From positions 372,001-436,000 of the forward strand of contig NZ_JACJPP010000013.1 in the NCBI RefSeq assembly GCF_014696135.1: a DNA stretch of 64,000 nt. Reading direction: 5' to 3'. Within the stretch, counting starts at the first letter, position 1, and the number at the start of each line of letters is the position of its first letter. A program made the position numbers and the translations under genes. Under the pieces are notes generated by a model. That model saw only the letters and a list, made by a program, of their open reading frames with translations. It did not search any database and was not told the origin of the DNA. This document shows positions 3,556-7,789 of this stretch, in pieces. The DNA is from Nodosilinea sp. FACHB-141. Its GTDB lineage: Bacteria; Cyanobacteriota; Cyanobacteriia; Phormidesmidales; Phormidesmidaceae.

Positions 3556-4515
3556 ATGAGCAACCTCCAGTTTGACGATGTTTCGCTGCGGTTTGCTGGG
3601 GGTGCCCGCCCGGCCGTAAACCGGGTGACCTGCCAGGTTAGCTCGGGCGAGATTGTGGTGATCTTGGGGCCTTCGGGCTGCGGCAAAACCACGCTGCTCA
3701 AGATGGTCAACCGCCTTTACGAACCCACTGGCGGCAACATCTTTCTAGATGGGACAAATATTCGCCAGCTGAAGGCGACTAAGCTGCGGCAGCAGATCGG
3801 CTACGTAATTCAGCAGTCGGGGCTGTTTCCCCACATGACGGTGGCCGACAATGTAGCGGTGGTGCCCAAGCTGCTGGGCTGGCCCAGACCCAAAATTCAG
3901 GCCCGCATCGATGAGCTGCTGGACTTGGTAAAGCTATCGCCGGGAGAATTTCGCGATCGCTACCCTGCTCAACTTTCGGGTGGACAACAGCAGCGGGTGG
4001 GCATTGCTCGGGCGCTAGCGGGCAACCCCGCCATCATGCTGATGGATGAGCCCTTTGGGGCGATCGATGCGATCACCCGCACGGCGTTGCAGGACGAGAT
4101 TTTGCGCCTCCAGGGCCAGCTTAAAAAGACGATTCTGTTTGTCTCCCACGATGTGGAAGAGGCCCTACGCCTGGCCGATCGCATCTTGATCATGCGCCTG
4201 GGCGAAGTGGTGCAGTTCGACACTCCCTTTAACCTGCTAACTAAACCCGCTGATGAGTTTGTGCACACTCTGCTGGGGGCCGACGACATGGTGCGCCAGC
4301 TGGGTCTGCTGCGAGTAAGTTCGGCGATGATGGCGCTGCCGCCCAACTATAGCAACGGCCACAACCCCACCCTCTCCCACCTAGACAGCCTGCGGGATGC
4401 GCTGTCGCTGATTCTGAAAACTGGGGCACCGGCCCTCACCGTGCTAGCAGAAGGCAACCCAGTGGGGCTGCTCACCCTCGACCACATTCGCGAGTCGGCG
4501 GTGAACGGGCGATGA
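3556..4515 (+). CDS. Osmoprotectant ABC transporter ATP-binding protein (OpuCA/OsmV-like)
   Basis: This ATPase energises the betaine-type importer at the inner face of the membrane. Walker A GPSGCGKTT is at residues 38-46, the signature LSGGQ at 140-144, and Walker B ends in MDEP with Asp164/Glu165. After the ATPase core, residues about 270-319 look like a single CBS-type repeat, where classical OpuCA carries two. That suggests reduced or altered osmotic or nucleotide sensing. It starts 31 bases after the binding-protein gene and overlaps the permease by four bases (ATGA), so it is translationally coupled. Confidence 0.9.
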   Translation: MSNLQFDDVSLRFAGGARPAVNRVTCQVSSGEIVVILGPSGCGKTTLLKMVNRLYEPTGGNIFLDGTNIRQLKATKLRQQIGYVIQQSGLFPHMTVADNVAVVPKLLGWPRPKIQARIDELLDLVKLSPGEFRDRYPAQLSGGQQQRVGIARALAGNPAIMLMDEPFGAIDAITRTALQDEILRLQGQLKKTILFVSHDVEEALRLADRILIMRLGEVVQFDTPFNLLTKPADEFVHTLLGADDMVRQLGLLRVSSAMMALPPNYSNGHNPTLSHLDSLRDALSLILKTGAPALTVLAEGNPVGLLTLDHIRESAVNGR

Positions 4516-5144
4516 GCTACCTACTGAGCAACCCCGGCGACGTGCTCACCCTGCTGCTGCAACACCTGCGGATGACGGGAATTGCCCTGGGCATTGCGAT
4601 CGCCCTATCGGTTCCCCTCGCTCTGCTGGTCTCGCGCCTGCGCTGGCTAGCGGTGCCCGTGCTTGGCGGGCTGGGGGTGCTTTACACCATCCCCAGCCTG
4701 GCGCTGATTATCTTTTTGGTGCCACTGTTTGGCCTCAACGCCACCTCGGTGATTGTGGCAATGGTGCTCTACACCCAGGTGATTTTGGTGCGCAACCTGA
4801 CGGTGGGGCTGGCGGGCATCAACCCGGCGGTGCTAGAGGCGGCGCGGGGCATGGGCATGAGCGTGGCCCAGCGCTGGTGGCGGGTGCAGGTGCCATTGGT
4901 GCTGCCAGTGTTTTTAGCCGGGGTGAGAATTGCGGCGATCGTTGCCATTGCGATCGCCACTATTGGGGCCAAGTTCAACGCTGGCGGTCTGGGCAAGCTG
5001 CTGTTTGATGGCATCCAAACCAATCGCTACGACAAGATTGTGGCGGGTGCGATCGCGGTAGCAGTTCTAGCACTGGTGATCAACGGGCTGCTGCTGGCCC
5101 TAGAGCACTACACCCAACCCCAGCAGCGACTAAAACTTAAGTAA
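4512..5144 (+). CDS. Osmoprotectant ABC transporter permease (OpuCB/OsmW-like)
   Basis: This 210-residue inner-membrane permease has about six hydrophobic helices and an EAA loop (EAARGMGMSVAQRWW) that docks on the ATPase. It overlaps the ATPase gene by four bases. OpuC/Osm systems normally have two permeases; the only other family member here is at 7145-7789 on the opposite strand, beyond an AT-rich island. Confidence 0.9.
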   Translation: MSYLLSNPGDVLTLLLQHLRMTGIALGIAIALSVPLALLVSRLRWLAVPVLGGLGVLYTIPSLALIIFLVPLFGLNATSVIVAMVLYTQVILVRNLTVGLAGINPAVLEAARGMGMSVAQRWWRVQVPLVLPVFLAGVRIAAIVAIAIATIGAKFNAGGLGKLLFDGIQTNRYDKIVAGAIAVAVLALVINGLLLALEHYTQPQQRLKLK

Positions 5145-5151
5145 GCAGCAG

Positions 5152-5178
5152 TTACGGCTTAGCCACCATCCGTATAAT
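5152..5178 (+). promoter_or_regulatory. Candidate promoter for the cysteine-rich ORF
   Basis: A perfect TATAAT lies at 5173-5178 with a weak TTACGG at 5152-5157, 15 bases upstream. A transcript from it would begin just before GAGAGG (5186-5191), a plausible ribosome binding site for the ATG at 5200. This is sequence resemblance only. Confidence 0.35.
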
Positions 5179-5229
5179 CCACCCTGAGAGGGCATTTATA
5201 TGAAAACTGTCGGCATAATAAGTTGTTGA

Positions 5230-5460
5230 GTGGAGCCTTACGACACATGTACTATGTCGAAAATAGAACCATCATTTTGCTCAAAACAGTGCGAGGAAAC
5301 GGAACCTAACCGCTCCTTTAAGGCCTGCGGCCTGTGCGGAAAGCGGTGGGATGGAAATGCTAACGATTTCTACTGCAATACAGCGTGGAAAAATTGCATA
5401 AACTGCTCAAATGAAAAGAAAATTTGTGTAGTTTGCGGAGGTAAAATCATCCCGACCTGA
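5230..5460 (+). CDS. Cysteine-rich small protein, possibly interrupted by an in-frame TGA
   Basis: I recognise no family. Between the ATG at 5254 and the stop there are 68 residues with nine cysteines, mostly in CxxC pairs (CGLC, CINC, CVVCGG, plus CSKQC), like a double zinc ribbon. Starting at GTG 5230 adds MEPYDTCT. The same frame continues upstream through TGA (5227-5229) to an ATG at 5200, which has the only good ribosome binding site (GAGAGG, 5186-5191). The gene may therefore be a pseudogene with one nonsense codon, or may start internally. Its base composition is AT-richer than the flanks. It precedes the LanC-like gene on the same strand. A RiPP precursor role is conceivable but a zinc-binding protein fits the CxxC spacing better. 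Confidence 0.5.
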   Translation: MEPYDTCTMSKIEPSFCSKQCEETEPNRSFKACGLCGKRWDGNANDFYCNTAWKNCINCSNEKKICVVCGGKIIPT

Positions 5461-5702
5461 CGAGGTCGGCATTGCAGCTGCCCAAAAGTCACTCACCAAA
5501 ACGCTGCTAGCTGCTTGATTGGGTTGCAAAGGTTATCTGCGTTCGGTGAACTTGGTCGTTAAACTTCAAAGCTGTTTACTTAAAAGTAGCTGGAAGGCAT
5601 TGGAATGAACTCATTGATTCTCCCAATCTGAAATCTAGTTTCAACAAGTGGTCGATAACAACGCGCAGATAACATGCGGTCGTAACTCATAAGCCAAGAA
5701 AA

Positions 5703-6905
5703 ATGACACTGTTTGATCCAGCTAGACACTATCCACTCTTGCAGCTCGATTGGGAGCCGAATGCGGTTCAAGAAGCAATTTGTGCGATCGCCCATGAAAC
5801 CATTACTCAACTGCAAACTGCGCCATTGTTGTCTGGGCACCCGATGGACGATCAAGCATTTGGCAGCGACCTATATTTTGGTAAAGCTGGCGTTCTATGG
5901 ACAATTCACTATCTGCAAACCGTTGGAGCAATTGACTCAACCATTGATGTAACGACTCATCTCAATGAGTCATTAGAACAAAATCAACAGCGTTATCCCA
6001 AGGTCAGTCCCTATCCCGAGCAGTCGTCTTATTTGTTTGGAGAACTGCCACTACTGCTGCTGCAATATAAGTTATCTCCCTCAGAAGACAAAGCTATTCA
6101 AATTTTGCAATCGATTCACAAGAATGACTCCCAGCCCGTTCGAGAGCTGATGTGGGGCATGGCCGGGTCGATGCTAGCGGCTTACTTTATGTATCAGTGG
6201 ACGCAAGAATCAAGATGGCAAGAGGTCTTCAAATTGCAAGCAAGTTTACTGCTACAGGAGTGGCAATCTGTTGGTAAAGTTGGATACCTGTGGACAATCG
6301 ACTTGTACGGTGGCCAACAACAGTGGTTGGGACCTGTACATGGCTTTGCCAGTAATTTAACGCCATTGCTTGTCGGACAGCCCCTATTAACCAATGAGGA
6401 ATTTCAAGACATCTCAAATAGAGCGATGATGACTGTAGTTCAAACCGCAGTGACGGAAGATGGCACAGCAAACTGGCCAGCTGTTTACGACAAAGCCCAT
6501 CCTCATCAAGCTCCAAACTTAGTGCAGTACTGCCATGGAGCACCCGGAATGGTGACGGCTTTGGCAACGCTGCCAAGAGGGGTCTATGAGCAATTTGATC
6601 GCATTTTGGAGCAAGGTGGAGAGCTGACTTGGCAAGCGGGTCCATTAAAGAAGGGATCAAATCTGTGTCATGGCACAGGGGGTAATGGCTATGCATTCCT
6701 CAAGCTGTTTAACCGAACTGGCAACCAGATGTGGCTCGATCGCGCTAAAGTCTTCGCGATGCATGCAATCGAGCAGTACCACCTGTCGCAACAACTCTAT
6801 CGACAGCTACGCTATCCGCTCTGGACAGGAGATCTCGGTCTAGCAATATATTTGTGGGACTGCTTGCAAGCACAATCGCAGTTTCCTACGATCGATATTT
6901 TCTAG
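5703..6905 (+). CDS. Free-standing LanC-like protein (lanthionine synthetase C family, LANCL-type)
   Basis: The 400-residue product has the three LanC zinc/active-site blocks: GPVHGFASN (His213), YCHGAPGM (Cys277) and LCHGTGGNGYAFL (Cys322-His323). The CHGAPG and LCHGxxGNxYAFL wording and the ~400 length resemble eukaryotic LANCL proteins more than lantibiotic cyclases. LanC cyclases add Cys thiols to dehydroamino acids; mammalian LANCLs add glutathione to dehydroamino acids in damaged proteins. No LanB/LanM dehydratase, protease or exporter gene is nearby, so a lantibiotic cluster is not supported. The gene is AT-rich relative to its neighbours but contains a HIP1 octamer, suggesting transfer from another cyanobacterium. 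The start ATG at 5703 has only a weak upstream purine stretch. Confidence 0.85.
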   Translation: MTLFDPARHYPLLQLDWEPNAVQEAICAIAHETITQLQTAPLLSGHPMDDQAFGSDLYFGKAGVLWTIHYLQTVGAIDSTIDVTTHLNESLEQNQQRYPKVSPYPEQSSYLFGELPLLLLQYKLSPSEDKAIQILQSIHKNDSQPVRELMWGMAGSMLAAYFMYQWTQESRWQEVFKLQASLLLQEWQSVGKVGYLWTIDLYGGQQQWLGPVHGFASNLTPLLVGQPLLTNEEFQDISNRAMMTVVQTAVTEDGTANWPAVYDKAHPHQAPNLVQYCHGAPGMVTALATLPRGVYEQFDRILEQGGELTWQAGPLKKGSNLCHGTGGNGYAFLKLFNRTGNQMWLDRAKVFAMHAIEQYHLSQQLYRQLRYPLWTGDLGLAIYLWDCLQAQSQFPTIDIF

Positions 6906-7144
6906 TGCTGTTTTAGTAATCCTATAATTTAAGGAAGCGTACTCCACAATTATTAAGTGCAGCTTGATCAGATCTAGAAAAGTAGCTTTACCTTTCAATT
7001 ATTGGGTAGTTTAATATGCAGAAACTTCATCAACACTGATAGCTAAACTTGTTATGCATTCGCTGCGTATCTGGTTGTGTGACTAGAAACGTTATCTAGG
7101 CAGAACTCACGTAGGACTGCTAAATCCGTAAAGCTAAATTAACC

Positions 7145-7789
7145 CTAAACCGATCGCACTCCCGGTGGCTGCGCAGCCCGCTGCACCGCGCTCAACCCTA
7201 CCTCCGCCAGCAGCGCCAGCAGTGCTACTGGCACTGCCCCCACCAGCAAAATCGCCGGGTCATAGGCGGCGAACCCCAGCACAATAAACGCCCCCAACCC
7301 GCCCGCCCCCACAAAGGCGGCTAGAGTAGCGCTGGCGATCACCTCCACCGCAGCAGTTTTGATGCCAGCGATCACCACTGGCAGCGCCAAGGGAATTTCG
7401 ACCGTTTTGAGAATGTCGCGGGGGGGCATTCCCATGCCCGTTGCCGCCTCGCGAATGGCGGGGCTGATATTGCGAAAGGCCACGTCGGTGCTGATCAGAA
7501 TGGGCGGCATCACCAGCAGCGTCAGGGCCAGCACCGCCGACCAAAAGCTCAGCCCCAGCACGGGCACCGCCAAAAACAGCACCGCCAGGCTGGGTATTAC
7601 CCGCAGAGCATTAAAGCTATTGAGCATGACCGTAGAGATGAGGCGCGATCGCGCACTCCACAACCCCAGCGGCAGCCCCACCAGTAGCCCAATCGTCAGA
7701 GGCACCGCCACCAGCAGCAGGTGCTGTTGCAGAGCGGTAAGGATGCGATCGCTATTATCTAGCGCATATTGGTAGGCGTTTTGCAGCAT
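7145..7789 (-). CDS. Second osmoprotectant ABC permease (OpuCD/OsmY-like), displaced
   Basis: This 214-residue permease has about five to six membrane helices and an EAA loop (REAATGMGMPPRDILK). It is of the same family as the permease at 4512-5144, so it is the likely second membrane subunit of that importer. It lies on the opposite strand, converging on it, with about 2 kb between. It sits 69 bases downstream of the sugar-type ATPase gene on the minus strand and may now be transcribed with that operon. Confidence 0.85.
   Translation of the reverse strand: MLQNAYQYALDNSDRILTALQQHLLLVAVPLTIGLLVGLPLGLWSARSRLISTVMLNSFNALRVIPSLAVLFLAVPVLGLSFWSAVLALTLLVMPPILISTDVAFRNISPAIREAATGMGMPPRDILKTVEIPLALPVVIAGIKTAAVEVIASATLAAFVGAGGLGAFIVLGFAAYDPAILLVGAVPVALLALLAEVGLSAVQRAAQPPGVRSV

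Follow-up and report, generated by a model that had tools for sequence, protein, structure and literature searches.

Introduction

Genome-mining pipelines read bacterial LanC-type enzymes as antibiotic makers. Human LANCL enzymes cap damaged amino acids with glutathione.

The active site of the human protein has been described from structures of LANCL1 with glutathione and peptide (PMC9934072). The zinc ligands are C276, C322 and H323, the enolate is protonated by H219, and H277 contacts the substrate carbonyl. Glutathione is held at its glycine end by R4 and K317, at the cysteine carbonyl by H274, and at its glutamate end by H323, R364, D367 and E374. According to the same report, position 277 is always His in the eukaryotic LanCLs, predominantly Tyr in class I LanCs, and His, Lys or Asn in LanMs, and glutathione is not bound by NisC or HalM2 (PMC9934072).

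Earlier surveys set the LanC proteins without dehydratases aside. A NisC-driven screen of 2010 gave 11 such orphan homologues (PMC3091789), and the 2020 survey of Walker et al. put aside the 1392 unclassified LanC proteins left after exclusions (PMC7268733). The latter, as far as their description allows a comparison, resemble the gene studied here in having no LanB, LanM or kinase in the neighbourhood, and differ from it in being a leftover bin that was discarded. The same survey groups the human LanCLs with the class IV enzymes in one clade (PMC7268733). Among the open-access matches listed, no title or abstract opening announces a bacterial LANCL-like family.

Here we describe one gene of such a family in a 64,000-nucleotide stretch of the genome of Nodosilinea sp. 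FACHB-141, called the window below. It probably encodes a protein-repair or detoxification enzyme, not an antibiotic-making one.

Results and Discussion

The gene and its protein

The gene lies at positions 5703..6905 on the forward strand, begins with ATG and encodes 400 amino acids. Its description as a solitary LANCL-like gene is based on the open reading frame, the Pfam match, an AlphaFold2 model and dN/dS values. LANC_like (PF05147) is the sole Pfam domain found; it covers residues 56-396 (77.3 bits, E = 1.1e-21), and there is no fused dehydration domain. NCBIfam has no family of its own for this protein. The best NCBIfam matches were the LanM (74.5 bits against a cut-off of 304) and LanL (63.9 against 650) models, both far under the cut-off, as was the LanKC model (33.5 against 575). 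The cyclase domains of LanM, LanL and LanKC share the fold of the window protein, but they are parts of much larger synthetases that carry their own dehydration domains. No signal peptide was apparent by eye, and the protein is probably cytosolic. Identity as a defence gene was rejected, since no anti-phage family known to PADLOC matched the protein at E<=1.

Catalytic and glutathione-pocket residues

We compared the window protein with its relatives in a 77-member alignment, from which 5 duplicates, one locus without an ORF match and 4 broken or fragmentary copies had been excluded. The aligned members are 34-94% identical to the window protein and share 25 invariant positions. Invariant are H213, C277, H278, C322, H323, K317, Q275, N257, W258, W374, G376 and D377. 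The initial annotation had recognized a complete LanC site in His213, Cys277 and Cys322-His323. These residues indeed stand at the positions named, in 77 of 77 relatives. Cys277 and the pair Cys322-His323 (6666..6671, forward strand, as are all codons given here) are the predicted zinc ligands. Cys277 is encoded together with His278, the counterpart of LANCL1 His277, at 6531..6536. His213 (6339..6341) corresponds to LANCL1 His219, for which the role of enolate-protonating acid has been described (PMC9934072). Outside the 77-member set, one locus (L151; G694:C118), from a genome of 8.8 Mb that belongs to the Colwellia phylum, has lost a zinc ligand by the replacement C277Y.

Lys317 (6651..6653), also found in all 77 members, corresponds to the LANCL1 residue of the same number, which contacts the glycine end of glutathione. 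In a comparison across the superfamily, Lys occupied this position in 73/73 rows of the family and in all three LANCL/GCL proteins (LANCL1, LANCL2 and GCL2), against 1 of 39 LanM domains, none of three LanCs encoded beside LanB and neither of two LanLs; it is also absent from NisC. The position of His278 is Tyr in NisC and in 3/3 class I controls. It is His in 26 of the 39 LanM domains as well, so this residue alone is not specific with respect to LanM, and Lys317 separates the groups much better.

The second contact to the glycine end is probably Arg8 (5724..5726), which is Arg in all 73 ungapped rows that reach this position; the adjoining His9 is His in 74 of 74 such rows. The structural alignments start at residue 8 of the model against residue 4 of GCR2 and residue 22 of LANCL2. 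With the LANCL1 chains 8d0v and 3e6u_D the alignment begins at the same offset of four; with chains 8czk and 3e73 it begins earlier, at an offset of 2-3. Because these starting points coincide, Arg8 probably takes the place of LANCL1 Arg4, as far as the end points of structural alignments can indicate. Thus, the glycine-end clamp of glutathione, made of Arg8 and Lys317, appears to be kept.

The other contacts of LANCL1 are not kept in the sequence alignment. At the glutamate end, E374 is replaced by Thr375, D367 by Gln or Arg368, and R364 has no conserved counterpart; H274 is replaced by Gln275. The family has its own invariant W374 and D377 at the glutamate end, and R370 in 75 of the 77 members. 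It is therefore possible that the thiol, or the way in which it is gripped, differs from that of LANCL1. The motifs N257-W258, W374-x-G-D and R8-H9 likewise set the family apart from LANCL and GCL2.

Fold and descent

The AlphaFold2 model, built on the 77-row alignment, had a pLDDT of 94.6 and a pTM of 0.94. Its best structural matches were plant GCR2 (3t33, Z 39.2), LANCL2 (6wq1, 39.0) and LANCL1 (8czk, 38.7), with an rmsd of 2.8-2.9 over 354-357 residues, and LANCL/GCR2 chains filled the first nine rows of a Foldseek search. The lanthipeptide enzymes followed with lower Z scores: 32.3 for the class IV enzyme CuvL, 30.0 for ThurKC, 29.9 for MadC, 28.2 for NisC, 27.4 for LicM2 and 23.6 for CylM. 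Comparison of the predicted structure with LANCL1 and NisC, the check proposed in the initial annotation, thus gave a Z score of 38-39 for LANCL/GCR2 against 28 for NisC.

Sequence searches agreed with the model. The motifs had been described as closer in wording to LANCL proteins than to lantibiotic cyclases, and this held: against the PDB at E<=1, phmmer matched the window protein to LANCL2, GCL2/GCR2 and LANCL1 (E 5e-18 to 2e-16) and to no other protein, NisC being absent. A control LanC of Nannocystis, encoded beside LanB, behaved in the opposite way in the same run, with MadC (3e-42) and NisC (2e-17) first and the LANCL-type chains at 0.01-0.04. A profile of nine family members scored LANCL1/2 at 89-93 bits, GCL2 at 69 and the class IV synthetase CuvL at 15; NisC and CylM were not matched at E<=10.

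A maximum-likelihood tree was built from 75 sequences and 245 alignment columns. Left out were 4 truncated members and several reference domains, as well as rows shorter than 120 residues or at least 70% identical to a kept row. The bacterial family is monophyletic (aLRT/UFB 99.8/100). It forms a sister group to LANCL1/2 and GCL2 (73.4/96, a modest aLRT), and class I LanC is a separate clade (98.4/99) that excludes the window protein. Phylogeny, also named as a check, therefore put the window protein beside the eukaryotic LANCLs, with no clustering among the classical LanCs. Since the references of this tree include only two LanLs, and no confirmed LanKC, the sister relation may refine the class IV placement of Walker et al. 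and does not contradict it.

The window family and LANCL1/LANCL2 with plant GCL2/GCR2 thus have in common the fold over the whole length, the zinc ligands, the acid His, the enolate His, Lys317, a probable Arg4 counterpart, their stand-alone form and their adjacent place in the tree; the window family is bacterial and is about 26% identical to them in the aligned part. Class I LanCs such as NisC and MadC also share the fold and the zinc site and are stand-alone proteins, but they have Tyr at 278, have no Lys at 317, are located beside LanB and form a clade of their own. NisC and the three LanCs beside LanB are 13-16% identical to the window protein, and the Z scores of NisC and MadC are 28-30.

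The clade of the family and the LANCLs is joined in the tree by two kinase-LanC fusions (96.9/100), then by LanL, class I and LanM. These fusions (L155 1973-4375 and L156 1874-4435; 800-854 amino acids) come from Paenibacillus and Cupriavidus plasmids and have Cys-Cys in place of Cys-His. Two stand-alone LanC frames of 446 and 498 amino acids from two genomes of the Colwellia phylum (L163 5186-6523, reverse strand, and L164 5002-6495; tree labels L142 and L143) grouped with the LanM cyclase domains and not with the LANCL-like family.

Distribution of relatives

The relatives are lone genes from Cyanobacteria, Pseudomonadota, Myxococcota and related groups. The 63 genomes of the family-level group contain a match in 12. 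Seven of these carry a full-length copy that is 76-100% identical, the window's own included, and in one of them there is, in addition, a 43% identical paralogue. An eighth genome has the paralogue only, and the remaining four have partial or broken copies, of which one remnant was inspected.

When one genome of each species was scanned, 74 loci emerged: 13 in Cyanobacteria, one in a Saprospiraceae bin and 60 in Pseudomonadota, Myxococcota and other 'Deltaproteobacteria'. None was in Actinomycetota or Bacillota, although the scan used just two peptide patterns, and absence from a taxon is thus weak evidence. The family is rare in samples of whole phyla. In the Colwellia phylum, PF05147 was found in 10 of 299 genomes; four of these, the centre genome among them, have the signature residues of the family, five do not, and one partial match was left unassigned. 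In Cyanobacteria, 46 of 386 genomes passed the PF05147 cut-off: among the frames listed, 35 with LanM-sized proteins, 7 with marginal matches in frames of about 630 amino acids, and 4 others, which include the window gene and that of G094 (the family locus L091). In the phylum to which the Saprospiraceae bin belongs, 296 genomes were sampled; the bin was the only one with a full-length member, and one other genome had a partial match of 96 positions. The gene is rare and in some relatives partial or broken, and thus it is not essential.

We rejected a phage or plasmid origin. With the two patterns used, no relative was found in IMG/VR, and a single plasmid relative covered most of the query (Microvirga lotononidis, 40%).

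Solitary context

PF05147 matches once in the window assembly, which comprises 5.9 Mb in 31 contigs and is 99.98% complete. Family searches of this genome found no LanM dehydratase (PF13575), no LanB (PF04738) and no second LanC. The adjacent ABC transporters are solute importers of the glycine-betaine type (OpuAC, BPD_transp_1) and not lanthipeptide exporters. The view that neither LanB or LanM nor an exporter accompanies the gene was thus borne out.

The same holds for most relatives. Neither LanM nor LanB was found in 45 of 53 family-bearing genomes; the 53 represent 50 of the 74 loci plus 4 further genomes, minus L036, with 24 loci left out. The other 8 have LanB and/or LanM matches, none of them within 10 kb of the family gene. 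In G459, the family gene is some 40 kb from a partial LanB match (95 bits) and some 850 kb from a LanM, if contigs of equal length are taken to be the same contig. In G460, the distance to LanB is about 6 Mb; in the remaining six genomes, the matches are on contigs that differ in length from that of the family gene. A lanthipeptide dehydratase in a conserved neighbourhood, which would have spoken for lantibiotic synthesis, was therefore not found: no flank recurs, and the nearest case is about 40 kb away.

The 14 cyanobacterial copies lie in 11 unrelated contexts. Sharing of DNA within 3 kb and of small ORFs within 1.5 kb was confined to three pairs of close relatives; some of the flanks are short at contig ends (204 bp upstream in L028). 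The ORFs of the loci were called mechanically as the longest ones, so some neighbours or start codons may be wrong. Clustering of these ORFs across loci gave no partner at a recurring place, the one exception being a kinase that accompanies the paralogue in a single lineage. We also rejected a recurrent neighbour at the level of domains: in 145 of the 147 nearest neighbours (2 were excluded for their length), the commonest Pfam family among the best 25 of 162 was TetR_N, with 4 occurrences.

The kinase belongs to the 42-45% identical paralogue (L022 7524-10602 and L027 9535-12497, reverse strand), which lies about 60-70 bp behind a Hanks-type Ser/Thr kinase on the same strand. The kinase has an apparent membrane helix, as judged by eye. 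In L024 and L025 the kinase is kept and the LanC gene is broken. A conserved kinase partner was rejected, since the kinase adjoins only the paralogue in one small lineage.

Searches for HopA1 and VRP3 linked no producer of dehydroamino acids to the family. Of the family-level genomes, 8 carry at least one of the two paralogues at full length, and because none of these has the HopA1 lyase, this enzyme was rejected as a partner. It occurs in 5 of the 63 family-level genomes overall, and one of these, G011, has a partial LanC copy. A phosphothreonine lyase of the VRP3 type was found in 0 of the 53 family-bearing genomes by a search that had no positive control.

A strong match to glutathione synthetase (E<=1e-50) was present in 50 of the 53 family-bearing genomes and absent from three. 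As a discriminating test this co-occurrence was rejected, since 161 of 188 Myxococcota have the synthetase anyway; it is expected in these phyla and is thus weak evidence.

The locus and selection on the gene

The gene lies in a low-GC segment (5145..7144) between two convergent genes for ABC permeases of the OpuC/ProW type (PF00528), at 4512..5144 on the forward strand and 7145..7789 on the reverse strand; these borders stand outside the proposed function. The GC content is 44% in the left spacer, 48% in the gene and 36% in the right spacer, and the GC3 of the gene is 47% against 68-77% in nine nearby genes. The right permease is found in 17 of 26 genomes of the genus at E<=1e-40; the left one falls outside the examined stretch in several of them. 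In other members of the genus, the same spot holds a pentapeptide-repeat protein, an Exo_endo_phos protein of the nuclease/phosphatase family, or unannotated or small ORFs (L174, L176, L180, L183, L185), including a 224-amino-acid protein without a Pfam match. A PIN-domain ORF adjoins the right permease in one relative. Because its contents differ within the genus, the segment looks like a variable insertion spot. By its GC3, the window gene looks acquired from elsewhere. At the other cyanobacterial loci, except in the closest relative (L016), the gene has a GC content close to or higher than the local value.

Eight pairs of family genes, 4 of which involve the window gene, gave dN/dS values of 0.08-0.21; one pair is saturated at synonymous sites. 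These values indicate that the protein is maintained by purifying selection.

Two other genes of the window may be mentioned. At 1019-1354 on the reverse strand, there is a cupin that lacks a Nif11 leader and resembles Nif11/cupin proteins in their C-terminal part (TIGR03890, 95 bits against 159). The protein encoded by an ORF at 53-730 on the forward strand carries, close to its N-terminus, a long run of Gly-Thr dipeptides.

Proposed function and alternatives

We propose that the window protein works on its own as a LANCL-type zinc enzyme, which adds a small thiol, most likely glutathione, intermolecularly to dehydroamino acids or similar electrophiles. We put the probability of this reading at about 0.55. 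Cys277, Cys322 and His323 would hold the zinc, which would bind the small thiol and activate its thiolate. The thiol would most probably be glutathione, with Arg8 and Lys317 as the clamp for its glycine end. In a damaged protein or peptide, the thiolate would then attack the double bond of dehydroalanine, dehydrobutyrine or a similar Michael acceptor; His278 may steady the enolate and His213 may protonate it. No dedicated partner gene would be required, and in this proposal that is why the gene occurs alone. We infer zinc binding, the reaction itself, glutathione as the thiol, dehydroamino acids as the substrate and the repair role. The thiol-quenching function would fit the conserved pocket of R8 and K317. 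The retained glycine-end clamp and the glutathione synthetase in 50 of 53 genomes favour glutathione, but with its altered glutamate end the pocket might accept another thiol.

A broader proposal is more tentative. The family may consist of previously undescribed bacterial stand-alone C-thiolation enzymes that, as in animals and plants, cap dehydroamino acids of the cell's own proteome; the low-molecular thiol would sit in a pocket that differs from that of LANCL1 at the glutamate end, and the family would have an ancestor shared with LANCL apart from the lanthipeptide cyclases. The place of this solitary family beside the eukaryotic LANCLs suggests that protein or metabolite damage control is an older or parallel role of LanC, and these small stand-alone enzymes would lend themselves to asking where LANCL comes from and which thiols can be used.

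The initial annotation had held quenching of dehydroamino acids by a thiol, or an undescribed modification, to be more likely than lantibiotic synthesis. Our results support that judgement: the relatives have no dehydratase in a conserved neighbourhood, and the protein does not cluster with classical LanCs. LanC-fold proteins mostly serve RiPP pathways, and some of the unclassified ones may mark an uncharacterised RiPP class according to Walker et al. (PMC7268733). Nevertheless, we find it improbable that the protein cyclises a precursor encoded elsewhere, as part of a RiPP pathway that is undescribed or unlinked. The window genome has no known dehydratase family, the 14 cyanobacterial copies share no flank or small ORF beyond the three close pairs, the class I Tyr is absent, few of the compared cyclases have K317, and the tree points the same way. 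Selection maintains the gene, which is solitary and occurs in unrelated contexts; this pattern is easier to reconcile with an enzyme whose co-substrates are general constituents of the cell than with a RiPP cyclase. It is rather unlikely that the chemistry is the same and the partners are different, i.e., that glutathione or another thiol is added to small electrophiles, as by a glutathione S-transferase, or that thiol adducts are removed by the reverse reaction, with no protein repair. The glutamate end of the pocket is unlike that of LANCL1, human LANCLs also take off glutathione adducts (PMC9993889), and Glyoxalase_6 and Glyoxalase domains each occur in 3 of the 145 nearest neighbours, although this is not an enrichment test. 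On the other hand, the peptide-facing His278 and the acid His213 are invariant, as in enzymes acting on dehydroamino acids, and no neighbour recurs.

The paralogue behind a Hanks-type kinase in two genomes of the genus brings to mind a phospho-signalling route, in which a kinase and a lyase yet to be named yield dehydroamino acids that the LANCL-like protein caps; in class IV synthetases, kinase, lyase and LanC are parts of one protein (PMC2843593). We give such a route hardly any weight for the window gene, which has no adjoining kinase. Pkinase occurs in 2 of the 145 nearest neighbours, one being the kinase of the paralogue lineage and the other a relative of this same gene, and the kinase survives beside a broken LanC gene in two relatives. 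It is also very improbable that the gene is a passenger without useful activity, horizontally acquired and now being lost. The atypical GC, the broken remnant and the patchy distribution (12 of 63 family-level genomes, 4 with only partial or broken copies) would agree with a passenger. Against it stand the low dN/dS in all 8 pairs, the saturated one included, and the 25 positions that stay invariant over the 34-94% range of identity.
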